DNA of 64,000 nucleotides from a candidate division WS6 bacterium OLB21 (GCA_001567305.1 JYPD01000012.1:1-64000); one strand, 5' to 3'; shown: positions 4,369 to 47,342, numbered from the stretch's first letter. Translations and numbers: made by a program. Notes: generated by a model from the letters alone, not told the origin.

Positions 4369-4381
4369 TTTAACTGTTTTT

Positions 4382-6923
4382 TTAGCCAGACTTTGGTTTA
4401 AGAGGTGCATTATATCCCCCGGCGCCCATACCCGGCGCTCCCATAAAGCCACCCGGTGCAGGTTTCTTTGATTTCTTACCACTCATATCTGATCTGTCGT
4501 TCATCTCAGCCTCAACTAGACCTTTGTCGCGTCCATATCTAAGCCTTGATAAGTTCTTAACGATTTGTGCAACTTTCATGTTTCCCTCTTTAGGAATGGC
4601 AAAAGGCGCGTGCTTATAATTTGTATTGATAGAGAATGCTTCGGGAGATTCACCTTTAGCAATGATTTTTACATATGCGTTTTGTGTTTTCGAGATTAGT
4701 CAAATCGTTTTGATCAAAAAATCGGAGTGAAAATTGTTTCTAAGAACTGTGCGTCGGTCGTTCCAACCTTCATACTTACAACTGTGCCGACATTTCCGAA
4801 TACCGCATCTCGAATTTTTTCGTCGATCTGGGCGATATATTGGTTGGCAACAATAAGATTAAGGCGATATTTTCTGGCCTCGGATAAGATTTGTGCAAAA
4901 TCTTCTGTAGAAAAGTTCTGAAACTCATCGACATACAGATAAAAGTCTTTTCTTTGTGATTCGGAAATGTCGGCTCTACTCATAGCAGAAGATAAGATTC
5001 TTGGCACTAGAAGCAGTCCAAGAAACTGCGCGTTCTCTTCTCCGATAATACCTTTTGATAGGTTAACTATCAAAATTTTCTGTTCATCCATTATTTTTCT
5101 CATGTTAAAACCAGATACCGATTGTCCGAAAATGTTTCTGGTCAGTTTATTGGTAACAAAGCGGTCAAACTTGGAGACAATGTAGCCAAGAACCTCTGAC
5201 TTATGAAAATCTTGAGTCTTAGCAATTTCATCTGTCCAATATCTTCGAACGAGATCGTCTTTGATTTCTGGAATTATTGTATTGGCATAATCCTCGTCAC
5301 TAAGGATCCTAAGTACTTCAACCAGAGTACTACCAGGTCTTTCCATGACTGTAAGCATAGCATTACGGACTGCTCGCTCAAACCTAGGACCTGTTATACC
5401 CTGATTATGTGGGTCAAACATTTTTTTGCATTAATCCAACAAACGAGTTTACTGTTCTATGTTTATCTTGCTCGTTATAAAATTCGATGATATTAAATCC
5501 AATAGGACGATCGGTGTCTCCCGGATCCCAATAGATTACATCTTCTATTCGATGAGGAGGAATTCTTTCTAAGAGCCATTCTGCAGAATCTCCGTGGGGA
5601 TCCAAGAAAGCTACCCCTCTGCCGTTCAGGATATCTTGATATGCCATCTGCTGGATAAAATAGGATTTTCCAGCACCAGTTTTACCGATAACATACATAT
5701 GTCTTCTTCTATCATCGCTGTCTATATATACCTGCTTCGAAACATCTCGATAAATGTTTGTACCTAACCACAAGTCACCAATTGAAGGAACAGTCGCTGA
5801 GGCCGGAGCTCTTTTTACTCATCAACCAGTTGATGTGGGGAGTATTGACCGTTTGATTTGGAAAATGCATGATAGTCGCAAGTTCTCCTGTATTCAGAAT
5901 CATCTGCTCGCGGGGAATTCTGTAAACGAAATCGTGAATAAATCTATGCTTCTGTTTGTCTTTCATCGATTAATTTTTCGAATTGATTGCTACCTTCTTT
6001 CGTAAATTGGGAGAACGAACTAATCATGCTGTCGAGCGTTATCTCGGCTTGCTGATCAGTGCTTCCGGTTGCAACCAATCTTATATCTACATTAAATCCA
6101 CCTTTTTCGCATTTTTTCTCGATTGATGCCAGCAAGTCTTCAGGAACATCCATCTTCTTTTTTTCTGGATCAGAATTATTTGTTCTCACCTTATCGACGA
6201 ACTTCTTTCCGGTATTTCGCCAAGACTTCCGGCTCCTGTGACAACAACTTGCAAGGCGGCAGACTCTCCCATTCTAAGCTTGCTCATTGTTGTAAGTAGC
6301 GATGCAATTGAGTCGGTAGTGAGTTCTTCATAAGTTCGAATCGGTTTATAACTGTCTTTATCTAGTTTCAAGGCGGCAAACTTCACCTTGCTGTTTTCTG
6401 CGAAAATATTATATTCATCTGTAGTTACGATCTCTGCGGTTGGATAAGCTCCGTTTATCGCTTTTTCAACAGTATTGGCCAGGTTTCTACTAGCTACCAC
6501 ATAGAATCTTATAGATTCAGGTAGACCAACAATCTCAAAACTGACAAACGATCTTGCTTTAGTCAGCTTTTTAAATCCCTTGTAGTTTTCACTGATGCCT
6601 AGAAGCCCTGAAAACATTTGATCTGCAGCCTGAATTTCGACCTCGTTATTCCTGGGAACTCGCACCTCAAAAATTGTGGCTCCTAATGATTTTTTCTCTA
6701 GAGAAGCTTCACGAACTCCTCCTGCGAATCTTTGAAACAGAAGTCTTAACAAAATGAGAAACACTATTACTGTAAAGAGGATCACAAAAAACCCAATCCA
6801 TAGACCTGGGTTAAGAAGCTCGCCAAATACACCAAATTCGTTTCTAGCTGCAATAGTTGGAGTAGTTCGTAAAACAGATTGCAGCAATGGTGCAGTTATT
6901 GTATCTGAAATTGATATCGGCAT
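4382..6923 (-). CDS. VirD4/TraG-like (HerA-type) membrane ATPase (several frame breaks)
   Basis: A DNA- or substrate-coupling ATPase of the type IV secretion/HerA-FtsK superfamily. The N terminus has one membrane segment (about residues 37-65), then a conserved domain, then the motor with Walker A GKTGAGKS, LDPHGD, and Walker B/TraG motif YVDEFQNF. The C-terminal region carries DLTNL...NAYVKI and ends in a Lys- and Gly/Met/Pro-rich tail. Six frame breaks interrupt it, near 6206, 5961, 5812, 5421, 4716 and 4680. Five are one extra base in A/T runs. Repairing them gives 845 residues in exact triplets. No VirB4 partner is present in this window. It follows a P/Q-rich gene and precedes the LamG gene. 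Confidence 0.82.
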
Positions 6924-7889: not shown

Positions 7890-7890
7890 T

Positions 7891-10233
7891 CTAAAACTTT
7901 TCAAGCTGAGCAAGTGAGAGTTCGTAGACCTTTGTTCCGTCAAGACATATAGCTTTCCGTTTTGTCTGTTTGCAATTATTTCTTTGATATTGGTAAAGAC
8001 CGAATTGCTTTCTCCTCTGTAGACATATTGAGCTCGCAAATTAATTTGGTTTACATCCTTTGGAAATATGAGGATTCTCTTTTTTGACGGATCGGCAATA
8101 TATACATTAACTTCATCGACAAATAAGGCTGTAGCAGAAAATAGATTCTCGCCTGAATTCAATCCTGTCAAAACCGGAGTGTCGTCGACATTATTAAGCG
8201 CTCTGTATAATCCCTGTTTAATATTAGCCAATAAGTAAATTTTTAAGTCAGAAATAGCAATATCTGTTCCGCTCGCGAGTTCGTCGAATGAGAATCGTCT
8301 TTCTGGAATTCCGTATGACTCCCCTGATCTTTGCAACATTATTACTGATTTTATGCTCTGATCAACTCCATATATTCTTCCACCAAAGATATCTGCGAAT
8401 TCAATTTGTGCAACATTGCCTAGCCTAAAAGCACTTGTGCCGGCATGACGGGTTATCGTTCCGTCTTCTCGGTTAACTGTGGCAAGCCTTCTGTCTCCAT
8501 CTTCGTCTAAGAGAACGATGTTGCCATTATTGTCTGCAGTAATGCTTCTTGGTCGTGTTAGTCCTGATGCGAATTCTTTAAGATCAGCTCCGCTGAGAGA
8601 TGATCGGTAGATTTTTCCATATTCGGAGTCCGAAATAAACAACTCGTTTTTACTGATAACTATGTCGCTTGGATTAGCTCCTGGGAACAACCCTGCAATA
8701 TCTACAACCACATTCGGATCAACAACTGCTACTGTCTTATTCAAAAGATCGCGGATGCCTTCGAGCTTCTTCAGATTTTCTTCAACTTGTTCAGCAAATT
8801 TTTCTACTTCTTTAGCCTTGTTTAGTTCAGATTCAGCTGTTGAAAGTTTTTCTAGAGAAGCCTGCTTTCTTTCTTCCCCGCTAGTTGCCCTAGATATAAT
8901 TTCTGCAACCTTATCGACCTCTTCAATTAGTTCAACTGCCTTGTTAAGATGCATTTCAGCCTCGTTTTCTCTGGCAATGGTAGCATTTCGCTCTTGGATA
9001 CTAGTTACACTAAAGTACAAGAGCATGACCAATGCAAAAACGGCTATTAATATAACCCTCCAGTTTCTGCCCGGCCCTTTGCCTTTTAAGTAAAGCTGAT
9101 CTTTCTTTACACCAAGAATATCTTCTAATAATAATTTTTTAATCGACAGAAATGCTTTCTTTAATATTAGGAAAATTTTATCAAAGACTACTTTATATGT
9201 CGGTTGATCATAATTTACATCGGTTGTCTGAGCCTTGGCCCTAACTTCTGCAGGGGTAACTGCCAATGGTGCTTTGCCTCTGACTCTTCTTCGGGATTTA
9301 GCTAAAGCAGAAGATAATTTTAGTTTTAGTTCAGAAACCTTTGCCTTTAAAGATCCTATTGGAGAAACACTTTTATTATCTTGTTCATTTTCGCGTTCGT
9401 CTAGGTTTTCGCGTTCCGATTCTGTTTCTGATTCCATTTCTGATTCCGTCTCGGATTCAATATCTGCTTCGGGTTCGACTTCTGCATTCTCTTGTTCAAC
9501 AAGATCTGCCAATGTAAGGTCTTCATCTTCTAGTTCATTTTTTCCAGAACTCACAACAAGCTCTCTTTCTGCTCTAGCACTTTGACGATCTACTTCGTAA
9601 CCAACCATTATTGCTGAGACAAGGGCGTTATTATCAAAAACTCTTTTCTTAAATAGATCATCTGAGAAATTAACGCATACCTCAACAATGTCGTCTCTAG
9701 TTAACTCTTTAACGACAATAGGTGAACTTAGAATAATTATGTCGTTTCTTTTAAGTAGCATACTGCCAATTTTTATTTGTGCTCTTCCGGTAGGGTCCTT
9801 AAGAGCCGGAGCAATATCGGTAAGTATTCCATCTCTATAGATATGAGCATGGCATTGGCCCATACTTACAAAACTGGCTACTCTTTTGTGCACGACTAAT
9901 GCAAGCAAATCAATATCTATGCCTGTTTCGGCTGCTTGATCGTTCTCTAGAATCTTTTGCAAGTAAGCCTGAGTGGATATAATTGCCTTTTCTAAGGCAA
10001 GCAAAGGTTTATCTGTAGGATTCTCGAAATAAGTTTCGTGCAAATGGTCTAGAAGTAGATTTCCTGCGGTACTAACATTGAATGTTTCAGGACCTGTCAT
10101 AGAAATTGCCGCAAAGATTTCTCCGCGTTTGCGCATGAATTCTTCGTTCATAGGTTTGTAGGCATAAACGCTGGCCCACTTCCCCTTTGCCGGTGTTCCT
10201 ATATAGTATTTTTTTTTGAATATTGCTTTTCAT
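7891..10233 (-). CDS. Receptor-like pseudo-phosphatase (PPM fold) with TM and beta-propeller (frame breaks)
   Basis: About 780 residues. The cytoplasmic N-terminal domain (about 1-240) resembles PPM/PP2C phosphatases in its strand pattern, but the metal-binding Asp motifs are lost (GQCH where GDSR is expected, LSSP where SDG is expected). An acidic linker of repeated E/S/T follows (coded near 9418-9490), then a membrane segment (VILIAVFALVMLLYF), a coiled coil and an external NHL-like propeller. It starts at ATG 10231-10233, overlapping the upstream stop as ATGA. Frame breaks lie in the T9 run 10209-10217 (one extra) and near 7948 (one missing). The likely role is sensing or scaffolding; a catalytic role is doubtful. 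Confidence 0.68.
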
Positions 10234-10466: not shown

Positions 10467-11123
10467 GGTTCTTCCCTTCTTCCGCCACCACGGCGATTCA
10501 TAAATTTACTTAGGTCTGTTAATACATTTCTAAACCAAGTTGGGTCAGGAACAGATTCAAATAGAAATTTTCCGCGATCAGAAGCAGTTGTAACAATAAT
10601 GTCACCATAGTCAAATAAAGCAGGAAGGATTCCGACAACATTTTTGTCTGATGTCCTCGATATTTTTTAATGAAGCCTCTGAGACAAATTTACCGGTAAG
10701 GATTCTAAATTCGATATGAATAAATCTTTGGCTGGTAATTAAATAAATGTCGAAATACCAATCTAAAAGTTTAGCGAACGCGTAACTAATGACAGTTGAG
10801 TAATAAATAAGTGCTAACAAAACCCAAGAGCCAACTGACACAAAATCCCAAAGATTAAAACCTCTGGGTAGAAATTCGGGAAACGAAGCGATAGCCCATT
10901 CAATTGCGGCAATAACGATTATTGGCGTGATTAGGAAGGCTAGAACTCTTAACATCCATCCAAGATTAGTAATTACATGTCTACGCACAAGAATATAAAC
11001 AGATTCTCCCCTGTCTTGTGTGGCAAATTCAACACCTTTCGGATATACATCGAGAGTGCCAAGCAAACTCTTGCGAGGCTTGGGAAGGATTTCACGAATA
11101 GATTGAGGTTCTGGACCTGCCAT
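10463..11123 (-). CDS. Bacterial PH-domain-like membrane protein (frame break)
   Basis: 219 residues. A cytoplasmic N-terminal tail leads to two membrane helices (about residues 60-82 and 95-120), then a YdbS/bPH-type domain with the family pattern WYFDIYLITSQRFIHIEF...GKFVSEASLKNIEDI. It ends in a basic RRGGGRR tail. The frame breaks in the T5 run at 10641-10645. Removing one A in the coding sense restores a domain that continues NVVGILPALFDYGDIIV, typical of bPH_2. It is first in the coupled minus-strand operon leading to smpB and the VirD4-like ATPase. Confidence 0.75.
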
Positions 11124-11160: not shown

Positions 11161-12901
11161 CTAACCTGTTTTCAAAAACCAGGTTAAACTATATATGTAA
11201 TCGGTGGTGCCTTTTGGCTTAACATTGGCAACCCAGCTATTCCAGACAGCTTTGTAAAGCCAACCTGACATAACTTTGGTGCCATTTGATCCGGTTAATC
11301 TGACTTGTTTGACACGGTTAGAGCCATCTCTAACGAAGGTAATGCTCTGCAGTTCTCCCACTCCGTTTTTAACACCTTTTAAGAAATTGTTCGAACCTCC
11401 TGTGGTATAGTTGTTAGCCGCCCAAGTCAAAAATCCATTTAGATCCGACAAGCTGTAGCTGTTTGTTTTCCATTTCCAGTTTGTATATGAAAACTTGGCT
11501 GCTATGTGGTTGTCATTTACATGTCTTAAGTATGAATAAGGAGTACCTACACCTTCAAAATTTGACCAAACAGTATCGTTATTTGCGGTTCCATAACCTT
11601 GACTATTGTCAGAAGAATAAAGTGCCCTAATTATTTGATTTGTATGTGTGCTTCCACTTGAAATGATCACTTTGTTCAGGGTTTCATCGGCTGCCCACCT
11701 TTTGGCATTCCCACCTTTGTATACCTGACAAGATGCAGTTGTGCAGATTGTTCCGCTGTAACTTGCGGCATAAGACCTGGCAGCAATAACCTGAGCCTTA
11801 ATAGCCTCTTCAGGCCAACAATCCCAAACAGTGTTTGGATTATCAATTACATACTTTTGTGGATTTTGCGTTACTTGCTCTTGATTACCACAGGCTTTGT
11901 CTGGAACTTCTCCAAGACCTGCGACATAGTCATTAAGATCCATTACACCGTAGCCTTGCACAGATATTGTTCCAGATCGCTCTTCAACTCTGGTTTGGGT
12001 GTAATAAAAATTTAATATCTGCTCTGCAGTCCAGCCTTTTTGTGCTGCACCATAAGCACCAAATTGAGACAAACCGACTCCGTGACCTTGATACAAATCT
12101 CTGCCGGTACCTTCAAAAAACAGTTCTCCGCTAATGATGACGACATCATCGACCGGTCCACCACCGACTAGTTTATTTTCTTCGGCTAGAATTGCTTTTT
12201 GTTCTTCGGTTAATTGTTCGATTCTTTGTTGAACCTGACCCATTTGTCCGCGAATTGATCCGGCATTAGAAGATGACGAGGCAATGGTGTTGTTAAGACT
12301 GGCAATCTTTTGTTCTAAGGACTTCTTTTTTTTCGGCCAGTGCAGTTTTATCTTTCTCTAATTCACCGATCTGAACAGCGTAAGTTTCGCTTGTTTGTTC
12401 AAGATCGTTTAGCTCGGCCGAAATCCCAAGTATCTGTCGCCTTGATTCTTCGGCAATATATTCTTGATAAACAGCCGTTTTCAAAAAATCATCAGATCCG
12501 ATAATTTGGGTGGTTGTTGAATTTGTTTTCCAAATAATATACGACTGAGTAATTTCTTGATCTTGCACTTTTTGCATCTCCTCTTTTTGTAAACTTTTAA
12601 GGGAAATTGTCTGTTCAAGGTTCTGGCGCTCGAGTTCGTTTATCTCTAGCTGAGTTTCAACATCAGTAAGTTCAGCTTTTACTCGTTCAATTTCTGAAAG
12701 TGTAGAATTTTTGTTTGCCTCGCTGGCTTTGAGAGTGTCTTGCGCTTTTTTTAGCTTGGCAGCTAGTTCTTCGAGTTCTTTTTGTTTAGCGATTATTTCT
12801 TGGTTGATCTCGTCGGATGTTTTTGCATAAACGGCTATAGGAGAATAGATTCCTGCCAGCAGAACGAATATTAAACTGAAGATCACAAATTTGCTTTTCA
12901 T
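11161..12901 (-). CDS. Secreted coiled-coil protein with SpoIID/LytB domain (frame break)
   Basis: 579 residues. A signal peptide (residues 1-26, ending VYA) precedes a long coiled coil rich in E, K and L of the PcsB/CwlO type (about 30-215). A C-terminal SpoIID/LytB amidase-enhancer domain follows with GHGVGLSQFGAYG, ILNFYYT, and the VIAARSYA helix. SpoIID-family proteins act on peptidoglycan glycan strands or activate amidases. The frame breaks in the T8 run at 12326-12333. Removing one base joins the two parts exactly. Likely involved in wall remodelling during division. Confidence 0.85.
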
Positions 12902-22345: not shown

Positions 22346-24334
22346 ATGTTTCGATTATTTGGTTCGAAGAGAGATAATTACGATTCGGTACAGAAAGATC
22401 TGGAAGAAATTAATCTACGGCTAGAGATACTAACTGAGGTAAATAAAGAACTGGTTGGGATTATTAATAAACAGAGAGTTTTCGACCTAATAACGAAGAG
22501 ACTTGCTAAAAAGGTAAAAATGAACTTCCCATCAATCTGGATATACGATGAAAAGGAGGATATGATTAAACTTGAAAGCCATTCTATCCCAAAGAGAATA
22601 CAAGTTCTTGCTGAACGAGCTATTGGAAAACCATTGACTAGTATAGGCTTTGACAGAAAAGATCCTAGGCAAGGAAAAAGTGTATATTTCAAAGTTATCG
22701 ATTCAGGAAAGCCCTATTTTAACGACGATCTATATACTCATACTTATCCTTACTTCAACAATAGAATTGCGAAAGCCCTCCAGTCCATATCTGGTATGAA
22801 ATTGGCAATTTCGATTCCAATAATTGTGGAAGATAAGGTGCTTGGTATACTCAGTGCGATATGGAAGGAGAACAGCCTGTCGAAAGCAGACGAATTAACT
22901 CTGAACTCCTTTGCAGACCAGATAGCCATCGCAATATACAATGCCAATCTATATGATAAGGTTCAGAAACAGCTCCAGGAGTTAGCGAGTAAGAACCTAC
23001 GACTTGAATCACTTTATAACCTTACTAGTACCGTATCACAAACCCTCAACCCAGAGAAGGTACTTCAAGCAGCAGTAAATGCTATACCTTTGGATAATGA
23101 GCTGCTTGGGGTAGCTGTGTTGCTTTATGAAACTGAAACAAAGAAGCTTTCAATTAAAGCCACAACTCAAAGCGAACTAGCAAGAAAGGCAGAAGAAATA
23201 GTTGGAGAATTTTCAAACTATGAACTTGACCTATCAAACCCAACACATAGATCTAACATCCTTTTTCAAACAATTAGAGAAGGAACCCCTAAAGAAGCTA
23301 GCAGTATTTCTGATTTGTTATCACCTATTGTTCCGAAATCACAAATTGATGGTTTAAACAGAATTTTACGAATTAACCATATTGCAATGTACCCATTACT
23401 TGCTAGGGGAGAGCCTCTTGGAGCTATTGTTTTCTTTCTTAAACTCAATCAAGACGAGAAAATAAACGGAGAGAAACAACAGTTATATCTAACCTACTCA
23501 TCTCAATTAAGTATAGCTCTTGAGAACGCACTCCTTTTTACTAAATCGCAGGAAATATCGAACTATTTAAGGGAAGCTAGGCAGAGAGAAAGAGACATGG
23601 TCGATGTCATGGGACATGAGCTAAGAACGCCGATTACTATTGTAAGAAACGCCCTAATGAGTATGATTAAAGATTATAGCAAAGACGGAAAAATTGAGGA
23701 CCAAGAGAAATTGGGTAGGTATCTGGATATGGCTATAGAGTCTACGAAACGAGAGATCCGGCTGATTGAGACACTTCTATCTGCAACTAAAGTTGATGGA
23801 AACAGGGTTCAATTAGATCTAACTAAAGTTGATCTCACAGATGTGATAAATGATTCATTAGAAGCAAATAAGGGAGCCATTAAGGACAAACCTCGATTAA
23901 AGGTACAATTTCATCAACCAGACCCAAATATCTTCATCTATACCGACAGAGTGAGAATACAAGAAATCATTGACAATATATTAAGCAATGCGATCAAATA
24001 TACTTCATCGGGGGAAATTGAGATCACCACAAAGGTAACTGGTAGGGAGGTTTGGATCAGAGTTAAAGATACGGGAATTGGGATAAACAAAGAAGACATT
24101 GAGAAATTGGGACATAAATTCTTTAGAGCAAAAGCTTTATTGTCTGATAACCCTGGAGCTGTTCAGCCAAGTGGGACTGGTTTGGGTCTATTTGTCTCCT
24201 TCAACCTAATTAAACTACTTAACGGTTCAAAGAAAATTACTAGCGTACCTGGAAAAGGTTCTGTATTTAGTTTCTCTCAACCTCTCTATAACAAACAGAA
24301 AAATAAGAGAATTGAGGGTTCGATTGTTAGTTAG
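22346..24334 (+). CDS. Soluble histidine kinase with two GAF-like domains
   Basis: 662 residues without membrane helices. A short coiled coil leads to a GAF-like domain (about 25-205), a second GAF-like domain (about 220-400), a linker and HisKA with His424 in MGHELRTP. HATPase_c follows with DNILSNAIKY, DTGIGIN and GTGLGLF. The segment around the phospho-acceptor (RERDM-DVMGHELRTPI-IVRNALM) is nearly identical to that of the membrane kinase at 17999, which indicates duplication. It sits 7 bases after the UbiA-like gene and overlaps the convergent XRE-GAF gene by 8 bases. Confidence 0.88.
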   Translation: MFRLFGSKRDNYDSVQKDLEEINLRLEILTEVNKELVGIINKQRVFDLITKRLAKKVKMNFPSIWIYDEKEDMIKLESHSIPKRIQVLAERAIGKPLTSIGFDRKDPRQGKSVYFKVIDSGKPYFNDDLYTHTYPYFNNRIAKALQSISGMKLAISIPIIVEDKVLGILSAIWKENSLSKADELTLNSFADQIAIAIYNANLYDKVQKQLQELASKNLRLESLYNLTSTVSQTLNPEKVLQAAVNAIPLDNELLGVAVLLYETETKKLSIKATTQSELARKAEEIVGEFSNYELDLSNPTHRSNILFQTIREGTPKEASSISDLLSPIVPKSQIDGLNRILRINHIAMYPLLARGEPLGAIVFFLKLNQDEKINGEKQQLYLTYSSQLSIALENALLFTKSQEISNYLREARQRERDMVDVMGHELRTPITIVRNALMSMIKDYSKDGKIEDQEKLGRYLDMAIESTKREIRLIETLLSATKVDGNRVQLDLTKVDLTDVINDSLEANKGAIKDKPRLKVQFHQPDPNIFIYTDRVRIQEIIDNILSNAIKYTSSGEIEITTKVTGREVWIRVKDTGIGINKEDIEKLGHKFFRAKALLSDNPGAVQPSGTGLGLFVSFNLIKLLNGSKKITSVPGKGSVFSFSQPLYNKQKNKRIEGSIVS

Positions 24335-25112
24335 GAAAGATTTCTTCGCTTGAAAAGATCGAAAGAAGATCGGAACACATAATTCCAATTTGAGAACACA
24401 TTTTCCTTAATGCATTAATTTCAATCTCGTTTATTTCTTCTTTTTCTCGTGATGTCGAGAGATTCACTACCCCAGCTACTTCGCCTCTTCTGTTGTGTAT
24501 TGGAACCGAGACAGCGCATCGAATCTTCATTACTCTTTGGATTAAATCAGCTTCATAAGCCTTCATCGGAGGAGATACCATCCTTTTGACAGATCTTGAT
24601 ACTATTATCCGATTTTGAATTACCGACAACTTCGTCAAAGTTGTTTGTGTTCTTATTGGTTGTGCAAGGTAGGAATTCCTATTAAAGATAAACCTTTCTG
24701 CAAATCGGATAGCCGAACCTCTAGAATAGTATTTTAAATACAGCGACTCGTTTCTCGGGTTATACATAGAGAGAGATGACCCATTATAGCCAAACATCTT
24801 TTCTAGATATGCTAATTTTTGGCCTACTCCAAATTTAATTATTTGATCAGACAGGAAACTTTTTATGCTGTTTAACTTATCGCCCTGAAGAATAAACTCC
24901 TCCAATTCAATACCGAATAAGTCAGCTGTTTCAGCTGAAGTGAGCTTATAAACATCGGCCAAGCTCAACACTGTTTCTTTTGTTGGATTCACCTGTCCAC
25001 TTTCAATCCTAGACAGGCTACCTGTTGACGCGCCAATTGCAAGCTCAACCTCAAGCTGACTCAACCTTCTCTTCATTCTATATTCTCTTAGCTTTCTACC
25101 TAATCTGAACAT
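24327..25112 (-). CDS. XRE-family regulator with C-terminal GAF-like domain
   Basis: 261 residues. An N-terminal helix-turn-helix of the XRE/Cro type (about 5-65, LGRKLREYRMKRRLSQLEV and SLSRIESGQVNPTKETV) is followed by a linker and a GAF-like ligand domain (about 150-255, SVPIHNRRGEVAGVVNLS). It therefore resembles the sensory domains of the neighbouring kinases and may read the same signal. A 7-2-7 palindrome 48 bases upstream of its start (25160-25175) is a candidate operator. Confidence 0.8.
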   Translation of the reverse strand: MFRLGRKLREYRMKRRLSQLEVELAIGASTGSLSRIESGQVNPTKETVLSLADVYKLTSAETADLFGIELEEFILQGDKLNSIKSFLSDQIIKFGVGQKLAYLEKMFGYNGSSLSMYNPRNESLYLKYYSRGSAIRFAERFIFNRNSYLAQPIRTQTTLTKLSVIQNRIIVSRSVKRMVSPPMKAYEADLIQRVMKIRCAVSVPIHNRRGEVAGVVNLSTSREKEEINEIEINALRKMCSQIGIMCSDLLSIFSSEEIFPN

Positions 25113-25180: not shown

Positions 25181-26039
25181 TCAAATCAGTGTCCACCAGA
25201 AGTCCCCTGTATTAACAGGATGAGCAGTGCATTTATACCTTCTCGTTGTTCCGTTAGGTAGGTTGAACTTATATTCTCTTCCTTCCTCAACACATGGACT
25301 ATTAGGGATTCCATAATCTTCGGGAAAAACATTTACTTCAGACGGTGCACAACTCAAGCCACTCTGACATGCTACATTACTGACAGTGCAAGTTTCCGGA
25401 GGCAGTCCACCATCGGTTCCATAACAACCGTTTGAAGAACCAGCCGCAGAACCTATATCACAACAACCGCCTACCCCATCACTTACAGATGATATCAGCG
25501 AGGATGTTGGAGTTGCTGTTGCACCCGTAGGTGCTACTGAATCATCACCCTGATTCTGTGATCCGGTTTCTGAACACACCGTACTGAAAAAAAATGTAAA
25601 CCCAGGATCTCTGAGGTTGGCATAACATTCTGCCTCATTGGATATAAGCCCTCGCATGATAGTTGCCACCACGGGCTGCGAAAGAAAATACAAAAGCACA
25701 CCTATCACCCATTGGCCTCCTCTTTTTTTTGCCTGCTCTGCTTTTTGTTCATCACCAGCACTTGTAAGGTAGATAAACCCTATAACAACAAGCAGAAGCA
25801 TAAACACTATTCCTCCAAATGCCCAAGCAGCATAAATAAACCTGATAACAACATATTGAAGCTCTCTGAGTTGAGGAGGTTCGCAATTTGGATCGTTAAG
25901 ATCACATGGCAGTGTTAATCCTTGGGCATTGACAGAATCAAAAGAACCTACTAACAAAGGTAACAAGAGCATAGTCAAAAACGACCAGCAATACACCAAG
26001 TCTTTTTAAAAACAAGATTAACGAATCGATTCTTTTCAT
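25181..26039 (-). CDS. TrbC/VirB2-like two-TM protein with long Cys-rich tail (frame break)
   Basis: 285 residues. A signal peptide (ending VNAQG) precedes two membrane helices with the TrbC/VirB2-type loop GFIYLTSAGDEQKAEQAKKRG. A long extracytoplasmic tail of about 150 residues follows, rich in Cys, Gly, Ser and Thr (SSNGCYGTDGGLPPETC). ATG 26037-26039 gives a clean signal peptide if one base is removed from the T5 run 26003-26007. Otherwise translation would start at TTG 25999. It is the most downstream of six related genes but lies beyond a terminator, so it may be transcribed separately. Confidence 0.68.
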
Positions 26040-26081
26040 GTTTATAGTATAGGTCAGCTGTAAACAAAGTTCCAGAAAAAA

Positions 26082-26106
26082 AAAGATCCGCACTAGGCGG
26101 ATCTTT
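26082..26106 (-). terminator. Rho-independent terminator after the 26126 gene
   Basis: AAAGATCCGC-ACTAG-GCGGATCTTT forms a 10-bp stem. On the minus strand it is followed by a run of U (A-run 26076-26084 on the plus strand). Confidence 0.85.
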
Positions 26107-26125
26107 AAGCACATTTTAGTAATAA

Positions 26126-26668
26126 TTACTTACAATTCACACTAATTTGGCCTTGCCCTTTTGCAAATGCTTCGTACTCTGCCTCACAACCAGTACAAAC
26201 TGAATCAGCTGGATCTGCTAAACAAGCTTTACAGCCTACGCTGTTTGGTGCCGATAAACAGGTCTGGAATAAGTTTGGATCTGGTCTTGAAGCGCCAAAA
26301 AAGACAAAGACTAATACTATACCGACTATTGCCAAAAGCATTGCTGCAATACCCATGAAGATGGCAGTTATTGATTTTTGCGCTTCTTCGATTTTACCGG
26401 AATCACCTTGAGACTGAATATACTTGATAGCTGCCATAATTGCATATACAACTGCAATTAGAACAACAATACCAAGAGCAATAACTAAAGCAAGTTGCAC
26501 TCGACTGGTAACAAACTGTGCAGAACCGCTACCGTCTGGACCAGTAAGATTGAATATATCAGCTATTTGCGCAGGCAATAAACTTTGTGCAGCAACAACA
26601 TTGACAAGACCTACTACAACAAAGAATGCCATTAATGCAAAAGCAACTGGAAAGAATCGTTTGGACAT
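26126..26668 (-). CDS. TrbC/VirB2-like pilin-type protein with Cys tail
   Basis: 180 residues. A signal peptide (cleavage after VVAAQ) precedes two long membrane helices linked by the loop AAIKYIQSQGDSGKIEEAQK and a C-terminal tail with six Cys (CLSAPNSVGCKACLADPADSV). The fold matches TrbC/VirB2 conjugative pilins, which assemble into pili or secretion channels. It ends just before a strong terminator and has an 84-base AT-rich upstream gap that may hold its promoter, so it may be highly expressed on its own. Confidence 0.75.
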   Translation of the reverse strand: MSKRFFPVAFALMAFFVVVGLVNVVAAQSLLPAQIADIFNLTGPDGSGSAQFVTSRVQLALVIALGIVVLIAVVYAIMAAIKYIQSQGDSGKIEEAQKSITAIFMGIAAMLLAIVGIVLVFVFFGASRPDPNLFQTCLSAPNSVGCKACLADPADSVCTGCEAEYEAFAKGQGQISVNCK

Positions 26669-26752
26669 AAATATTAAATAATAATTAATGACTAATACTC
26701 TCTATTTACAATTAGTTTAGCCTATCTGGTTATAAATGTTAAGTATTAACAA

Positions 26753-27305
26753 TTAAAACCAGCGCGAACTGATATTTTCACAAGATTGTTCCCATCTTCT
26801 GTACTCATTAAGAGTAATATCGTTGACTACAAGACTCTGCCATTCTTGACCATCGCGTACCTTGCAACAGCCTATGGCTACATTCTGTCTGAAATCATCT
26901 TCGCTATAGCCTTTTAATGTTTCGTCTGTTTCAAGATATTGAAACATGAATTGTCCGCTTGTTCCACCACACTGTGCAAGATTTGTATGCCAAGAATAAA
27001 TATCCCCTATTCCTGTGAAAGCTCCAACCACAGATAAAAACGACTAGAAAACCGAGGAACATAGCAATTCCAATCCAGATATTGGTAATTGTCTTTTTGC
27101 CTGCTTCGATCCCATCCGGTTCTGCCGCACTGGTAATAATTCGGATGCCTGCATAAATCGACAATGCAACCCAGACCACCACCATAACAGTGAAGACCAT
27201 ACTAATTCCAAAAGCGATTACCGATAGAACTCCTCCCGTAGCGATTCCTCCAACATTGGGAATTAGTAATTGAATGCCGCCGATTGTTGTTTGTAGATTG
27301 AACAT
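26753..27305 (-). CDS. TrbC-like two-TM protein with outer domain (frame break)
   Basis: 183 residues. Two membrane helices flank the loop IRIITSAAEPDGIEAGKKTI, the shared signature of this array, followed by a mostly polar 90-residue outer domain with paired Cys (CGGTSG, IGCCKV, SCENI). No cleavable signal peptide is obvious. The frame breaks in the A5 run 27036-27040 inside the second helix. Removing one base joins the parts. It starts 13 bases after the lipoprotein gene stop. Confidence 0.68.
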
Positions 27306-27318
27306 GCTAATTATAATT

Positions 27319-28056
27319 TTACGGAATTAACTGCCATACTCCAGAAATGGAAGTTGGTGTCTCACGATTACAAATATAATTTTCAATTTCTCCATTAGTT
27401 AGAGCCCGATATGCTTTCTTCCCTATAGGTGAACATGCTTGGTTTGTTACCGTACCAATTAGCCTTTCTGGAGGGACCAAATCAAAATCAAAGAGGTTTT
27501 CGGCAAGACCAAGCAACATAGCCAACAACTGAATAATGATTATGCCAAATACAGATATAACTACTCCGATAAGAGCGTTCTTAAAAATTTTAACAGAGAG
27601 TTCGACTTTGTCTGCATTGTCTGCGGCCGTTGTTCGAACAATCATTCCGTACACTGCCATAAGTACAGTAACAACAGCAATAACACCCATTACTGCAGAA
27701 AGTAATAACCGAGTTATTCGCGGGATAGCCATCTGAGGAGGACCGAAATCTATTCCAGAGAAATTGACACTGTTAACAACTTCGTCTGTGGCTTGATCCT
27801 CTCTTTCTTTCGGTTCTGAAGGATCTCCTTTTTTGCAGCTACGACCCTCTGCAATAATCCAATACTGACAAACATCATTGCAATCAGCTGCAGGATCGGT
27901 GAATTTAAGCACAGAACAAGCCGGATCAACAACTAGGTCAGTACGATTTGGTTCACTAACGGGCCCGGAATCCGGATCATCTTGGTCAATAATGGCGCAA
28001 CCAGAAAGTACAGTTAAAGCAACTGCAAATATAAATAGATTGAGTAATTTCTTCAT
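27319..28056 (-). CDS. Lipoprotein with TrbC-like membrane module
   Basis: 245 residues. A lipoprotein signal peptide with lipobox LSGC (Cys20) is followed by a Cys-rich outer segment (about 40-75) and then two membrane helices around VELSVKIFKNALIGVV, matching the two-TM module of the neighbouring genes. A short outer tail with two Cys ends the protein. It starts 3 bases after the stop of the pilin-like gene at 28060, so they share an operon. Confidence 0.72.
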   Translation of the reverse strand: MKKLLNLFIFAVALTVLSGCAIIDQDDPDSGPVSEPNRTDLVVDPACSVLKFTDPAADCNDVCQYWIIAEGRSCKKGDPSEPKEREDQATDEVVNSVNFSGIDFGPPQMAIPRITRLLLSAVMGVIAVVTVLMAVYGMIVRTTAADNADKVELSVKIFKNALIGVVISVFGIIIIQLLAMLLGLAENLFDFDLVPPERLIGTVTNQACSPIGKKAYRALTNGEIENYICNRETPTSISGVWQLIP

Positions 28057-28059
28057 TTG

Positions 28060-28413
28060 TTAATTACCAATTAACTGGATTCCGAAAATTGCCCCAATTA
28101 AACCAACTACTACAGGTGCAACAATGATAATAACAAAACCAATAACAGCATATGTCAATATTTTGTTTGCCTTTGCCTCTTGGTCTGCGTTACCGGCAGC
28201 CGTGAGCTTGGTAAAACCCCCCAGAATGATCATAGCCAGCAAAGCCAAAGTTGCAGCAGGAAGGATAAACGCACTTAGCGAAGAAACAATGCTACTAATG
28301 TTTCCGAAAGCAGGATTGACAGGGTTTTGAATTGGATTCTGCGCTAAAACTTTTGTCGCTGCCACGAAAAAGATAACTATTGAAAGTACGAATGTGCTTA
28401 ATTGCTTTTTCAT
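28060..28413 (-). CDS. Minimal TrbC/VirB2-like pilin
   Basis: 117 residues: a signal peptide ending VLAQN, then two membrane helices with the loop GGFTKLTAAGNADQEAKANK between them and almost no tail. This is the plain TrbC/VirB2 pilin architecture and probably the basal member of the array. I place the start at ATG 28411-28413 (MKKQLSTFV), which gives a proper signal peptide. The open frame extends 7 codons further upstream. Confidence 0.78.
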   Translation of the reverse strand: MKKQLSTFVLSIVIFFVAATKVLAQNPIQNPVNPAFGNISSIVSSLSAFILPAATLALLAMIILGGFTKLTAAGNADQEAKANKILTYAVIGFVIIIVAPVVVGLIGAIFGIQLIGN

Positions 28414-28455
28414 ATTCTTAGAATAGCAGAGCAAATAAATTGATTCAAATTACTC

Positions 28456-29597
28456 TTATCCTCCCAGGAAGTTTTCAGGAAGGATGCCAAGTACATTTAT
28501 TCCCAAGAATCTTAGTATCACGACTGCGCCAACCAAAACCACCAAAGCAATTAGCGCAGAAGTAATCAGTTCCTTTGCCTCTCTTATTTGTTCGGGATTA
28601 TCTGTCTGCATCATTATTGCAGCCTGCAGAAATCTGATTATCATGACACCACCGATTATTCCTATTCCTATTTGAAACAGCCTGGTAATGATTCCATCTC
28701 TTGAATAATCAACGCAACCGATTGCAGTCCAAATTGTATTTGGACTGCTTGTGCATTCAATACAAAGGTTTTTTTCAGCATCGTTTCCTACTATTGTTTC
28801 GCAACCGGTTGCTCCCGGAGCACCTTGTCGCCTTTCATACTCTTCTTCTGTAATCCAACTACCACTGTAACATCGTTTTTCTTTTAGTGTGTATCCTGGC
28901 GGATAGCAATTTTGTTCACAGCCAGACCTTGTTGTTGGAACTAGTGAGGACTTATCTGGATCTTCATCTACTGCCACACAGTTGTTGGGCTGGCATGAAT
29001 AGCTTTGTTCAGGCGCCCGACCATGAGGATCTGTCAACAACAATAGATTATATAGACCTTCTCCGGGAGACCGTCCCTGGTCGTTAGCATTCTTGCAAGA
29101 GATCGGTCCTGGATTACCAGGTACTTGTGCCGGTGTGTATAGATTATTCACAACATTTACGACTCGATTATAGTTTCCTTCAAAGTCATTCTGATATCCC
29201 TGCGGGCAACAGACTATATACTTGGTAAAGCCCACCTGCTTCCAGATTGGATCCATATTTACGGGACAACAATAGAATTCGTTCCAATCACCAAATTTCC
29301 GTCGGTTCCTTTAACTCGTGCGATTCTCTCTTCGGCCAAACAAACCTCTACCCTATCGCCAGATCTTCTGCCTTGTACCGGATTTCCAAAAATACCTTCA
29401 GCAGGCTCTGTTAAACAAACTTTTTCTATTGTAGGTTGCTGCCTTCCATTGGTCATGTTCCTTTCGGTTAAACCATCTGGACAGACTGGTGTTGGAACAC
29501 AGACGGCGCTTCCCACAGCAGAGACATTTTCGGATACTAAAGAAGCAAAGGTTACGAAAGAAGCAATGATTATGAATAAACGGACAATGTGAATCAC
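28456..29597 (-). CDS. Secreted Cys-rich protein with C-terminal TrbC-like module (frame break)
   Basis: 380 residues. A signal peptide (ending VSAVG) leads to a large extracytoplasmic Cys-rich domain with many CC and CxxC pairs (IVCCPQGYQ, CEQNCYPPG, LCIEC) and a C-terminal two-TM module with AAIMMQTDNPEQIREAKELI. The frame breaks near 29279-29284, with one base missing. The repaired frame reads NEFYCCPVNMDPIW, restoring a CCP motif like the one 20 residues later. It overlaps the Clp-like gene stop by 4 bases. Confidence 0.7.
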
Positions 29598-32174
29598 TTT
29601 GGCACATTAGCTAAACTAGAAATATGAATCTCACCGCCTGCAGATAGTGTTCCGCCTACGATCTGCTTGGCAATATGGTTTTCTATATCATCTTGAATAA
29701 CTCTTCTTAATTCTCTGGCACCATATAAAGGATTGTAACCTTTTTTGGCAAGCTCGGCCAACAGGGTTGGAGCATAAGAAAAGGTGATACCTTTTTCTTC
29801 CAGCTTCTCTTCAAGCTCTTTGAGCATGAGTGCTGCAATTTGTTGTACCTCGATGGGAACAAGTGGTTTGAACAGAACAACTTTATCGAAACGATTAATA
29901 AATTCGATGCGTAGATAGTTTCTCAGCCTAGGCATTATTTCTGTTCGAAGCTTTTGGTAGTCGTAACCTTTTGCAGTGTAATCTGCAATCTCTTTTGATC
30001 CAAGATTTGATGTAGCAATAATAATTGTATTCGAAAAATCGACCTTTCTGCCCGCGCCATCTGTTAGTGATCCTTCGTCAAGAACCTGTAAGAACAGATC
30101 AAGAACTTTTGCATTAGCTTTCTCGATTTCATCAAGAAGAAGTAACGAATAAGGCTTTGTCCTAACGGCTTCTGTTAAATAGCCACCCTGAAATGTTCCT
30201 TTCACTTCTTTGCCAAGGAGTCTATCTAAATTTTCTGCCTCCTGATACTCAGACATGTCTAGCCTCAGCATTAGTTTTTCATCGCCGTAATAGACTTTTG
30301 TTAATGCTTTAGCAAGTTCTGTTTTACCAACTCCAGTAGGCCCGAAGAACAGAAACGAGGCAATTGGCCTTTTGCCACTCATAAGCCCCGCTCTTGACCT
30401 GCGTAAAGCGTCTGCAACAGCAATAACAGCTTCTTCTTGTCCAACTATCCTTTTGTTGATTTCTTCTTCAAGGTTTACAAGTAACTTGGACTCCTCTGTA
30501 CTAATTGCACCTACTTTTACGCCTACTTTCGCCGACACGACTTCTTCGATCAACTGTTCATCTGCAAAATTAATACCTCGGCTTTGTGCTTCGACCATTA
30601 CTTCTTCGAGCAAGTCTATTCCTTTGTCGGGCATAACTTTTTCAAAAGAGAACGAACCAGATAATTTGATAAGTCTTACAAGCGCATCAAAACTGACTTT
30701 AACTTTAAATTTATCTTCAAGCTTCGGCAGAACATCCATTAAGATTTGTTGACTAACAGATTCGGATGGTACTTTAAGCTCGACCTGTTTGAACTTTGCA
30801 GACAATGACCGTTCCGGCTTTACTCGGCGTTCGTATCCTGAAGTTGTTGCAACAGCAATTGTTCTTATTTTGTAACGATCAAGAGCATTGATAATTAAAC
30901 CAACCACCTCTTCGGTAACATCTCTTCTGCCGCTAAGTATCTGCTCAAAGTCGTCTAACACTAATATTATGTTCTTGGCTGCTGCTGATTCCTCAAAAAC
31001 GCTTTGCACTCTTTCTTTGAACTTTTCAATATTCTGCGACAGGGCAAAGGCTCTACTAAAATCGAAACCGACAAGGCGCATATCTTTTAAAGATTTGGGG
31101 ACATCTTCAACCACCATACGGACTGCAAGACTCTTGACTAGGGTCGTTCTTCCAACACCGGGGTTTCCGGTCAAAATTACTGCGCTATCTTCGCCTTCAA
31201 CCAGATACGAAATCATTTGCTCCAGTTCTTCTTCTCGGGCAAGAGAATAACTAAAATCTCCTTGTGCAACTTCGGCAGTATAGTCTCTTTGGAATTGAAC
31301 AAGGATCGGTGAAAACCTTGAGGTAAAAGCTCTATTTACAGTAGAAACAGGTTTTAATGCTCTCTTTTGTTTAAATAATTTTTTGTAGCGTGCAATATCG
31401 CTTTTGTTCTGGATCCACAGACCTAAAGAAGCCACTTCTTCTGGAAGAACATTTACACTTTTCAATTCCTGCTTCAAAGGTTCTTTAAGTAGGAAGAGGA
31501 AAAAGGCAAGTTCGTCGACACTATTTGTATGCAGTTCGTAAGCAAGTTCAAAAGACTCTTTTAGAACTTTCACCAACCATTCATCGACATGGGTATTATT
31601 CATTTTGGAATGCGTGCTGCTAATTTTTTGTAACATTTCCTGATTCAAACCGAGCCTTTTTGCTGCGGCCATAACCTTTGGAAAAGAATATAGCTCGTGC
31701 ATTAATAGTGGTAAAAAGTTGTGGTCATCCATGCGCAACAAGTCATCTATAACATTGAGCAAATCATGATCAATAAATGAGCTCAATTCTATCTGCTTGG
31801 GAAGGTCACCCTTGTTCAAAGATGCACGCAAATCGCTTAGCTGTTTGATACGCAACGAGTCGATAAATCTTGTCCTATTTCTGCGTAAAAATAAAGCATA
31901 TAAAAAAGGCAGAACAGAAAAGACTGCCAGTACATCTTTAATTCTGTCGGGATTAAGGATTTCAAATAGCAGAATCTTTCCTTCTTGCAAATCTGTGAAG
32001 AAAAGAATAAGTAAGGTGATCGCCGAAATGACAGTCAGAAAAAAGTCCTAACGACCTATCAAATAATTCGAACTCTCTTCGTAGCCCATATTCCTTTAAT
32101 AAGTAGTCCCAATCAAGGAATAGAGGGATGCCTTTAAACAGTCCGATATTTTCTTTACCTTTACGCAACTGCAT
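29594..32174 (-). CDS. Membrane-anchored Clp/Hsp100-like AAA+ ATPase (frame break)
   Basis: 859 residues. Two membrane helices at about 43-60 and 80-96 replace the usual Clp N domain. A Clp-N-like helical region (about 110-235) precedes D1 with Walker A GNPGVGRTT (about 336-344; the usual Lys is Arg) and Walker B LVLDDFE. D2 has GPTGVGKTE (about 611), Walker B LLLLDEIEKA and sensor motif ATSNLGS. The D1 YRG pore loop is not recognisable. The frame breaks in the A6 run 32039-32044, one base too many. It starts inside the upstream membrane gene (14-base overlap). ClpP partnership is unproven; the position suggests work on the TrbC-like proteins. Confidence 0.82.
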
Positions 32175-32529
32175 AGTTTAAATAGCGGATGAGCTGGATA
32201 AATGGCACTAAAGGTAAAATAAGATAAAAAACAAAGATGGCCAACAACGGCAAAGTGAAGATAGTAAGAATAATGGAACCAGTTACAACCCAAATGAGTC
32301 GTATAGGAATGCTAATAAATACCCCGATCATTGAGTAGTCTTGATACAGGGGTACCAATATATTGGTTGCCATCGGTAAAATATTTAGGTAGCCAAGGGC
32401 AAAACTCCAAATTGCAGATAGTTCCTGCAAGACTTGCCTAGACTGAACAAAATACCACCAAATCCAAAAATTAAGCAGATATTTTTTATCAGCACCACAG
32501 AAGTGATAAATCTTAGAAAAGTTTAACAC
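32161..32529 (-). CDS. Small polytopic membrane protein coupled to the Clp-like ATPase
   Basis: 122 residues, GTG start at 32527-32529. A soluble N-terminal third with aromatic residues is followed by a pair of long hydrophobic helices (about residues 68-115, GVFISIPIRLIWVVTGSIILTIFTLPLLAIFVFYLILPLV region). Its last 14 bases overlap the Clp-like start, so the two are coupled and probably interact. No family name recognised. Confidence 0.7.
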   Translation of the reverse strand: MLNFSKIYHFCGADKKYLLNFWIWWYFVQSRQVLQELSAIWSFALGYLNILPMATNILVPLYQDYSMIGVFISIPIRLIWVVTGSIILTIFTLPLLAIFVFYLILPLVPFIQLIRYLNYAVA

Positions 32530-44657: not shown

Positions 44658-45469
44658 TAGTTTATCAACCTAAGGGAAGCAACCTCGCGTTTAATAGAAT
44701 CTTTGAAGTAAATCTGTGATTTTCCGTAATAGTCAAGAATCCTGAGCCTATAAAAGACTGCAGTCGTATCCCAGAATGAACGGAGTCCTTCAAAAAAAGT
44801 AATGGTGCTGTTCTTTTTGTCCTCTTGAAGCAAAATTGGAACTTCTGCAATAGAAGTAAATCCAAGTTTGCTCGCAACTGCAAGAAATTCAATTTCAAAG
44901 GCAAATCTCTTCACGAGAAGTCTGGGTAATACCGCAGCAACCACTTCTTTCGTATAGAATTTGATCCCCACTTGAGTATCAGACACTTTGACTCCTGTAA
45001 GGAGTCCTGCATATTTATTGTAAAATCTGCTAAATAATTTTCTAGAAGGCGAATACGAAACCTCTGATTGCTTGTGCCATTTAGAAGGCACAACTAAATC
45101 GAACTGACCACTTCTAATCGTATTTATAATTGTCGTCAGATTACCGGGCAGAATATCTGCTCCAGCATCAACATAGCCTATGTAGTCTCCTTTAGCCCTC
45201 ATCATACCGAAACGCACCGCAAATCCTTTTCCTCTATTTTGTTCATAATGATAAATTCGCACTATGTCTTCTGGAAAAGAAGATAAAGCTTTAACAGTTG
45301 CCGGGGCATATCCATCTACTACAACAATTATTTCGTAACTTATGTTCAGGCTGTTTAATTCAGCTACTCTGCTGTTAATCGTGTCCAGAATAAAAGAATC
45401 TGCCTTGTAAGCAGGGATAACAATCGAAAATAATGGCCTATTTTGTATATTGGTCTGCTTTTTGTTCAC
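44657..45469 (-). CDS. Family 2 glycosyltransferase, DPM1/polyprenyl-phosphate type
   Basis: 270 residues. FSIVIPAYKAD, YEIIVVVDGY, NRGKGFAVRFGMMRAKGDYI and VDAGAD follow the layout of dolichol-phosphate mannose synthase-like enzymes that charge polyprenyl phosphate with a sugar. The usual DAD of the metal site is here DAGAD, with an inserted Gly. No C-terminal membrane helices are seen. Its product would feed the GT-C-type membrane proteins nearby. Overlaps the flippase gene by 32 bases. Confidence 0.83.
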   Translation of the reverse strand: MNKKQTNIQNRPLFSIVIPAYKADSFILDTINSRVAELNSLNISYEIIVVVDGYAPATVKALSSFPEDIVRIYHYEQNRGKGFAVRFGMMRAKGDYIGYVDAGADILPGNLTTIINTIRSGQFDLVVPSKWHKQSEVSYSPSRKLFSRFYNKYAGLLTGVKVSDTQVGIKFYTKEVVAAVLPRLLVKRFAFEIEFLAVASKLGFTSIAEVPILLQEDKKNSTITFFEGLRSFWDTTAVFYRLRILDYYGKSQIYFKDSIKREVASLRLIN

Positions 45470-46662
45470 GCCTAAAAGTAAGTAAGAAATATACAGAAAT
45501 AAGAAATAGAAAAGACATTACTACCATCTGGATATTAAGCACAGCGGCAATTGAATTTCCAAAATAATGTATTAATCCGATCTGCATTAACAAAGATAGG
45601 AACAAAAAAGGATTAATTTTATTATAATCCCTTGAGATTAGATAAAGCACGATATTATTGGCAAGAACAAATATTGTCATGATAACCGTCTGCATGGCTA
45701 AATATGATGCTGCTTCGATGAATTCTAAACCAAAAAACACTTTGAACAAGAAAGGTTCCAAGAAAAGCAAAGGCGATCGTTGCAAAAAGTCCTATTCCTG
45801 AACTGATTATAAGACTTTGCTTAAGATCCTTTAACGAACCGTTGCCGGAAGCGCTTATAGGGAAGAGAGCTATGGAGATAGATCCTGCCAAGAAAAATAC
45901 CAACTTACCGAAGGTAATAACAGCACCATAAATTCCTGCGTCATATGCCGCAAGTGATGATCTTGCCATTACCCCATCGACGATGAACATAAGATTGATC
46001 ACAATAAATCCTATTGAAACTGCAGTTACAGATTTAATACTAAAGACTTCTAGAACATCCACTTCCTTTTCACTAACTGTTAAGCGAGTAGATAATAATT
46101 TGGCGACAATTAATGTTATTAAGGAACCTACAGCCAGTCCAAATAATATCCCGTTAATACCAAGTCCTAAGGCAATAGCAGTTACAGCAAATATCAACTT
46201 TAATACTGATTCAATTATCTGTGTAATAGCTGTATCAGCAAATGACATTGATCCACGCAGAATGCCTCGATACATTGCCAGAAACAGAGAACTTAAAGCT
46301 AGCAAGGCCAACATAGCGAAAGGTGTGATATCTGAAATATTCAAATAACTTCTGAGAAATATCGTGCCAAGTAGAATAAAGCTAATTGCTAGTAGTATCT
46401 GAGCAATTAATAATATCTTAAGAAGATGCTGTTCTACCTGCTTGCTTGAAAGTTTATGTGTTGCCACTACTTTTGTGACAACATTAAAAACAACTGTCTG
46501 AGCAATACTGATAACAAACGAAAGCGACAGAAGCGATACAAGAACACCAAAGTCTTCTGGGCCAATGAACCTGCCTAAGGTATAGAACAAGAAATTCAAG
46601 CCCGCAGTCAGCACTGCCGCAAATGTAAATATCAGCGTTCCTTGTATAAGTTTGTTTGACAT
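45438..46662 (-). CDS. Wzx-like polysaccharide flippase (frame break)
   Basis: 407 residues with 12 or so membrane helices and no large soluble part. The N-terminal FTFAAVLTAGLNFLFYTLGRFIGPEDFGVLVSLLSL region is typical of MurJ/Wzx-type MOP-superfamily flippases, which move lipid-linked sugars across the membrane. I use ATG 46660-46662 (MSNKLIQG) as the start. The frame breaks in the A6 run 45732-45737; removing one base joins the frames. It belongs with the three glycosyltransferases downstream. Confidence 0.82.
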
Positions 46663-46685
46663 TGCTCCAGCGCGACTACAATTTA

Positions 46686-47342
46686 CTAGCTCTGGGATTT
46701 TCTTCGTGATGAGAATGCGAATGCTATTAACAGAACCAAGAGCAATAATAATAAGCAACACAATAACAGTACCCCGGCATTAAGGGAACCTAGAATGCTT
46801 GTGCTTTGTTGTCCAACTGCTAAATAAGGGAAATTATTTGCTTCTGCTGAATAGAAGTAATAAATTGAGCTTTCTGTTTTTTGTGCAGTGTTTTCTCTTA
46901 CCCATGCATTGTCTGAATTATTGTGGGTGAACAAAGAAATATCGTTCTGATTCAGAGATTTTTCGTTTAACCAACTCTTTCGAACTTTAAGATCAAGGCT
47001 TGTTTTTTTAATATCGTTTTCGTTTATTCCATTAAACTCAAATTCGCAATACTCAAAGGCATTGTCTATCTGTGCAGAGTCCTTTTTTGGGTTATCTGAA
47101 AGTTTTCTTAAGATAATTTCACCTTTTATATTGGTCTTTGCCTCTATTGTAACCTTATCGATTGATTCACAACCTGTAGGATAAAAAGAAATTCTATCTG
47201 AGGCAGCAATATCGATTCCATAAACTTCACCATTATCTCTATAAATTGGTGTTACTTGATTTGTATCATATTGGGCAAATGCAAGCGAAGGACTTAACAA
47301 TATGGACAGTGAAAGAATTATTGAAACAAAATACTTGGTCAT
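46686..47342 (-). CDS. Membrane-anchored secreted protein with PGF-pre-PGF-like domain
   Basis: 218 residues. A signal peptide (ending AFAQY), an outer domain (about 25-180) whose second half carries the pattern RKSWLNEKSLNQNDISLFTH...YFYSAEANNFPYLAVG, and a C-terminal membrane helix rich in L and C followed by a short basic tail. That pattern resembles the PGF-pre-PGF domain found on archaeal and some CPR surface proteins. It lies 23 bases upstream of the flippase and is likely cotranscribed. Confidence 0.65.
   Translation of the reverse strand: MTKYFVSIILSLSILLSPSLAFAQYDTNQVTPIYRDNGEVYGIDIAASDRISFYPTGCESIDKVTIEAKTNIKGEIILRKLSDNPKKDSAQIDNAFEYCEFEFNGINENDIKKTSLDLKVRKSWLNEKSLNQNDISLFTHNNSDNAWVRENTAQKTESSIYYFYSAEANNFPYLAVGQQSTSILGSLNAGVLLLCCLLLLLLVLLIAFAFSSRRKSQS

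Follow-up and report, generated by a model that had tools for sequence, protein, structure and literature searches.

The stretch of DNA analysed here (the window; 64,000 nucleotides of the candidate division WS6 bacterium OLB21) encodes six homologous two-TM modules at positions 25181-29597 on the minus strand, and these are, judged from their sequences, ancient orthologous subfamilies and not interchangeable copies. We consider it probable that the six genes form the pilin set of a Patescibacteria-type type IV secretion system (T4SS), made up of anciently separated, position-fixed orthologues that share one hairpin (PF18895) and carry outer domains of their own. Arranged head to tail between 29597 and 25181 and separated by short intergenic gaps, the genes are lettered F, E, D, C, B and A in the order of their transcription. 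Each of the proteins F to A has one hydrophobic hairpin of about 70 residues. An earlier note on this DNA had placed six two-TM modules with a shared loop pattern here; the modules are present at these coordinates and on this strand, and the pattern is real and can be read in all six, as QTDNPEQIREAKEL in F, TAAGNADQEAKANKI in E, TAADNADKVELSVKI in D, TSAAEPDGIEAGKKT in C, QSQGDSGKIEEAQKS in B and TSAGDEQKAEQAKKR in A. The array consists of the following genes:

28456..29597, minus strand: subunit F, with a signal peptide, a Cys-rich N-terminal outer domain of about 300 aa and a C-terminal two-TM module; it carries the motif CxxC...TAIGCV and its module ends in LGINVLGILP.
28060..28416, minus strand: subunit E, a signal peptide and a bare two-TM module, with no cysteine and no outer domain.
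27319..28056, minus strand: subunit D, with the lipobox LSGC, an N-terminal extension, the module and a C-terminal extension.
26753..27305, minus strand: subunit C, the module and a Cys-containing tail, with a frameshift near 27035.
26126..26668, minus strand: subunit B, with a signal peptide, the module and a tail of about 55 aa that has six Cys and the motif CLSAPNSxGC.
25181..25999, minus strand: subunit A, with a signal peptide, the module and a Cys-rich tail of about 150 aa with the membrane-adjacent motif PGFTFFFxxVC.

Whether the modules are related at all was examined by profile-profile comparison of the six module families, in which every pair was matched with a probability of 93-99% and E <= 4e-7, and three neighbouring membrane-protein families from the same loci, serving as controls, all stayed below 1.5%. 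The modules are homologous. Scored against the T4SS_pilin model PF18895 (curated cut-off 26.6 bits), E and F exceed the cut-off with 36.9 and 26.8 bits, A falls just under it with 26.3, D and B reach 20.6 and 14.5, and C gives no match; B and C are nearly invisible to this model, and A, B, C and D are tied to E and F via the profile comparison. The label TrbC/VirB2-like, given to the array previously, is corrected to T4SS_pilin, as a search of the genome with PF04956 (TrbC/VirB2) returned no match (best 14.4 bits, cut-off 27.9). The model for the Mbov_0395 pilin-like conjugal transfer protein (NF045849, cut-off 40 bits) likewise gave no hit above its cut-off, the best being E with 29.6 bits. 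AlphaFold2 predicts E as two helices, residues 10-48 and 53-86, with a short polar loop between them (pLDDT 72), the arrangement expected of a T4SS_pilin. The top Foldseek match of this E model is an archaeal conjugation pilin (PDB 8dfu, TM 0.62/0.69) and is not significant (E = 3.5). The AlphaFold2 model of F (pLDDT 43) is too poor for fold search or comparison. Sequence searches of the PDB with the E and F profiles gave no meaningful match, F showed no likeness to VirB5 in Pfam or PDB sequence searches, and Pfam detected no adhesin domain in the outer domains of ten F-type proteins.

The division into six subfamilies can be recovered from the modules alone. Pilins were labelled by their position in nine genomes from the taxonomic order of the window genome, and a leave-one-genome-out profile classification restricted to the modules, with genus or family mates also left out where present, placed 59 of 59 modules in the position they came from, in most cases by tens of bits. 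On a tree of the modules the labels change 5 times, the least possible for six groups, compared with a mean of 64 after shuffling. On this tree C comes out paraphyletic to B, and E is poorly supported, which is expected for an alignment of only 77 columns. The gene order F-E-D-C-B-A is kept within the taxonomic order and in two further families of the class (f6 and f10), and family f12 has E-D-C-B-B-A with F elsewhere in the genome. Arrays are also present in families f5, f7, f8, f9, f11 and f13, which the F-A profiles do not resolve; those of f8 and f13 begin with a long pilin carrying the F motif, and those of f5, f7, f9 and f11 have no pilin with the GC motif that precedes helix 1 (GC-motif pilin). 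The order is thus conserved across families of the class, and the earlier idea that a pilin-type module diversified anciently into distinct subunits that were kept together is borne out by homologous modules in a conserved order. Since order and outer parts are kept across lineages, we suggest that the six are distinct parts, for example tip and shaft, of one secretion-type surface appendage and not spare copies of one pilin.

A profile of the F motif and module found strong matches far beyond the class, and 20 distant loci with such matches were retrieved and mapped. The GC-motif pilin is the first gene in all 33 arrays of at least two pilins that have it, and its only other occurrences among 190 pilins are the second members of three tandem pairs; the distant loci were chosen by F match and therefore show the position of F, not its frequency. 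At one distant locus (L153, genome G153) the first pilin of an array is F-type by profile, with a degenerate GC motif, and the genes immediately after this array encode PrgI (PF12666), a 222-aa protein and VirB4 (PF19044), which ties F-type arrays to T4SS. The PrgI protein of this locus (11491-12720), adjoining VirB4, carries a C-terminal CarboxypepD_reg (Ig-like) domain. VirB4 is present in 38 and PrgI in 36 of 39 relatives, mostly at loci apart from the array in this class, and searches of the window's own genome (about 1.05 Mb, 87% complete) found neither. The most probable identity of the device encoded by the array is the type IV secretion system of Patescibacteria, for which pilin arrays are known (PMC12102498, PMC10633639).

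Outside the module the subunits differ strongly. Cysteines account for 395 of 7824 outer residues compared with 3 of 4034 module residues, E having none. Counting only complete proteins that have outer cysteines, 44 of 45 carry them in an even number, and B almost always has six; as the proteins are related, no probability is attached to this count. Even numbers are as expected of disulphide-bonded domains outside the membrane. Four types have a motif of their own beside the membrane, CxxC...(Y/W)(T/S)xxGC(V/I) in F, PGF(T/Q)FFFxxxC in A, CLSAPNSxGCxxC in B and GxGxxxxWxxNLxxC in C, with some variation in the most distant members. The earlier note had listed lipidation among the differences in outer parts. 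The lipobox LSGC of D has a counterpart, AVGC, in the nearest relative (G001) and is missing in more distant relatives, so lipidation is not a fixed character of D, and we rejected it as the mark of a conserved anchor, the anchor being one of the roles (tip, anchor and adaptor) that the note had proposed.

Where a subunit occurs in tandem, the module is kept and the outer part varies. B is a single gene in the window and has one to four copies in relatives, and tandem B copies share 80-100% identity in their modules compared with 43-72% in their tails (99-100% and 44-63%, respectively, in G001). Paired F genes have modules 88% identical and N-terminal domains 33% identical in G008, and 100% and 32% in G021. 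Such pairs of F genes, at L058 6080-9557 and L069 8153-10579, combine constant modules with strongly diverged outer domains and may represent tip variants. In G001, synonymous differences (pS) amount to 0.10-0.25 in the module and to a much higher 0.69-0.75 in the tails, whose alignments are uncertain; this suggests that the module undergoes gene conversion or that tails are exchanged. The B module is the most conserved between genera, and F has the largest and most variable outer domain, on a constant module.

The surroundings of the array include further genes of possible relevance to an envelope device:

11161..12901, minus strand: SpoIID-domain protein, coiled-coil at its N-terminus and frameshifted; the genome has no second SpoIID gene, and in most relatives SpoIID is near the array.
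10611..11123, minus strand: membrane protein beside SpoIID, matching a family of about 205 aa found beside SpoIID in relatives.
4714..6923, minus strand: VirD4/TraG-like coupling ATPase, in three ORFs through frameshifts; a single 849-aa gene in G007.
29594..32174, minus strand: ClpB/ClpA-type AAA+ ATPase upstream of the array, with hydrophobic N-terminal segments and a frameshifted N-terminus.
32161..32529, minus strand: small hydrophobic protein upstream of the Clp gene and conserved together with it.

The region 11161-12243 scores 35.9 bits against PF08486 (cut-off 23) and thus belongs to the SpoIID family, which has exactly one copy in every searched genome that possesses it. Among the 20 distant genomes, those chosen by F match, SpoIID is at most 4 kb from F in 17 and is typically divergent and adjacent. 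In the class it is found on the same contig and at most 20 kb from the pilin genes in about 30 genomes, with exceptions that include G034, G012 and G022. The distance in the window is about 12 kb, with SbcC/SbcD-like genes, sensor kinases, prenyl enzymes and a regulator in between. SpoIID of Bacillus is a lytic transglycosylase; taken with the genomic linkage, this makes the SpoIID protein a plausible candidate for the absent function of opening the wall. VirB1 is lacking from most genomes that carry such pilins (PMC12102498). The neighbouring 10611..11123 protein resembles bacterial PH-domain proteins by eye and has no Pfam match. The Clp-type gene adjoins the array in several Dojkabacteria families. 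Its N-terminal region gave matches of 60% with WS6 bacterium OLB20 and of 41-42% with records of Candidatus Dojkabacteria, and the genome is that of a Dojkabacteria (WS6) relative within the Patescibacteria. The N-terminal segments of the Clp-type protein are probably membrane-spanning, and D2 is without the ClpP-docking loop by eye. Directly at the end of the array lies an HTH-GAF regulator (24327-25112), present in G001 as two tandem copies at the same place, with a GAF histidine kinase (22346-24334) beside it. A large membrane protein with a pentraxin/laminin-G lectin-like domain (2266-4482) is located near the coupling ATPase.

These features would fit an appendage built from specialised subunits. 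The subunits would be exported and take up a hairpin topology in the membrane, the K/R-containing loop facing inwards and both termini outwards, from where a VirB4-powered machine would polymerise them into an appendage. The shaft may consist of B, which has the most conserved module and one to four tandem copies, or of the bare hairpin E; we considered and rejected the argument that its minimal form necessarily makes E the major pilin, the module of B being more conserved. F is the probable tip, a reading based on its place as first gene and on its largest and most variable outer domain combined with a constant module, and its disulphide-rich N-terminal domain would cap the appendage as an adhesin in place of VirB5. 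A, C and D would be minor subunits, perhaps of a base or collar. The single SpoIID-family enzyme encoded nearby would open the cell wall as VirB1 does elsewhere, and the finished appendage would make contact with the host. A broader proposal, which we put forward tentatively and regard as somewhat doubtful, is that many Patescibacteria build such a modular pilus, with an F-type elaborated pilin, encoded first and bearing an exchangeable outer domain, replacing VirB5 as the tip and SpoIID replacing VirB1.

The same genes might be read in other ways. It has been proposed for Patescibacteria, by analogy with Bartonella and Anaplasma, that pilin arrays are stores of variants (PMC12102498), and the array could then hold interchangeable VirB2 variants for adaptation to host strains or escape from recognition. 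Low identity between paralogues is in keeping with this, and the tandem B and paired F genes, with their constant modules and divergent outer parts, do resemble variant generation. Interchangeable variants should turn over, however, whereas the six types keep a fixed order and type-specific motifs over families, and extra copies contribute variation almost exclusively in B and F; we regard a variant store as improbable. Rather less strained, if still unlikely, is a fixed channel or scaffold that spans membrane or wall and displays outer recognition domains without forming a filament, the two-TM module acting as anchor and oligomerisation unit. The predicted fold is only a hairpin, a filament would have difficulty accommodating outer domains of up to about 520 residues, the arrays of this class lie apart from VirB4, and neighbours such as the Clp-type AAA+ ATPase and SpoIID would be in place in an envelope complex too. 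The PF18895 scores of E and F, the PrgI/VirB4 linkage at L153 and the published pilin assignments argue against such a scaffold and for the set of T4SS pilins.

Decay of the locus, in which split F and C would be pseudogenes and the variety of outer parts a result of drift, would explain the frameshifts that both genes carry in the window. F is split by one frameshift at about 29260-29310 into ORFs 29259-29597 and 28456-29256; the former (112 aa) was considered as a seventh gene and rejected, as it represents the signal peptide and first ~100 residues of F, and because it supplies this signal peptide F is predicted to be exported. In C the module ORF is 26931-27305 and the Cys tail runs on in the frame of ORF 26753-27031. 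Both genes are unbroken in most relatives, however, and selection is evident from the conserved motifs and the even counts of Cys. Similar breaks occur in other conserved genes of the window, namely those for the coupling ATPase, SpoIID, the SbcC-like protein, the Clp N-terminus, an FtsA-like protein (51625-52876) and a flippase-like protein (45438-46761), which suggests an error-prone assembly. The frameshifts of the window accordingly point to assembly errors, with real mutations also possible, and we give decay hardly any credence. At 7434-10151, SmpB is fused in frame with an NHL-repeat protein; as G007 (L057) has separate adjoining genes for the two, the fusion is likely to result from loss of a stop codon or from an error of assembly.

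Patescibacteria depend on other cells, and T4SS is essential in the one species tested. Fixed, specialised subunits turn an anonymous pilin array into a list of parts with roles that can be put to the test, such as contact with the host, the shaft and opening of the wall, and the outer domain of F would be a genome-readable candidate for what determines the choice of host. A pilin array as such is already known in Patescibacteria; this analysis adds the orthologous subunit classes, the F-first rule, the pattern of outer domains and the link to SpoIID. In the main texts of the openly readable literature, we found no description of such subunit classes, of a rule that places F first or of a connection with SpoIID. 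Arrays of 2-11 VirB2-like genes with an average identity of 25% are widespread in Patescibacteria (Quinonero-Coronel et al. 2025, PMC12102498), and the window, having at least two tandem divergent pilin genes, contains an array of this kind. Both sets comprise tandem, sequence-divergent PF18895-type pilins, here with VirB4 and PrgI in relatives. The paralogues were treated there as variants, whereas here they are conserved orthologous subunits with type-specific outer domains, an F-first rule and a linked SpoIID gene, and types B and C score too low for the Pfam model, which would miss them. The essential T4SS of Ca. Southlakia epibionticum also has a series of pilins (Wang et al. 2023, PMC10633639), six according to a review (PMC12857230), in an unusual T4SS, but its pilins lie inside the T4SS cluster whereas here VirB4 lies at another locus or is absent from the assembly. 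Archaeal conjugation pili (PDB 8dfu, Aeropyrum pernix) are likewise built from helical hairpin subunits, with the match to E being the non-significant one given above. In the Trw system of Bartonella, shaft-type and tip-type genes are multiplied as tandem TrwL (VirB2-like) and TrwJ (VirB5-like) genes, and the tip-type subunit binds a host receptor (PMC3406051). TrwJ is VirB5-like and not pilin-like, whereas F shares the module of the other subunits, so the likeness to Trw is one of arrangement and not of ancestry.
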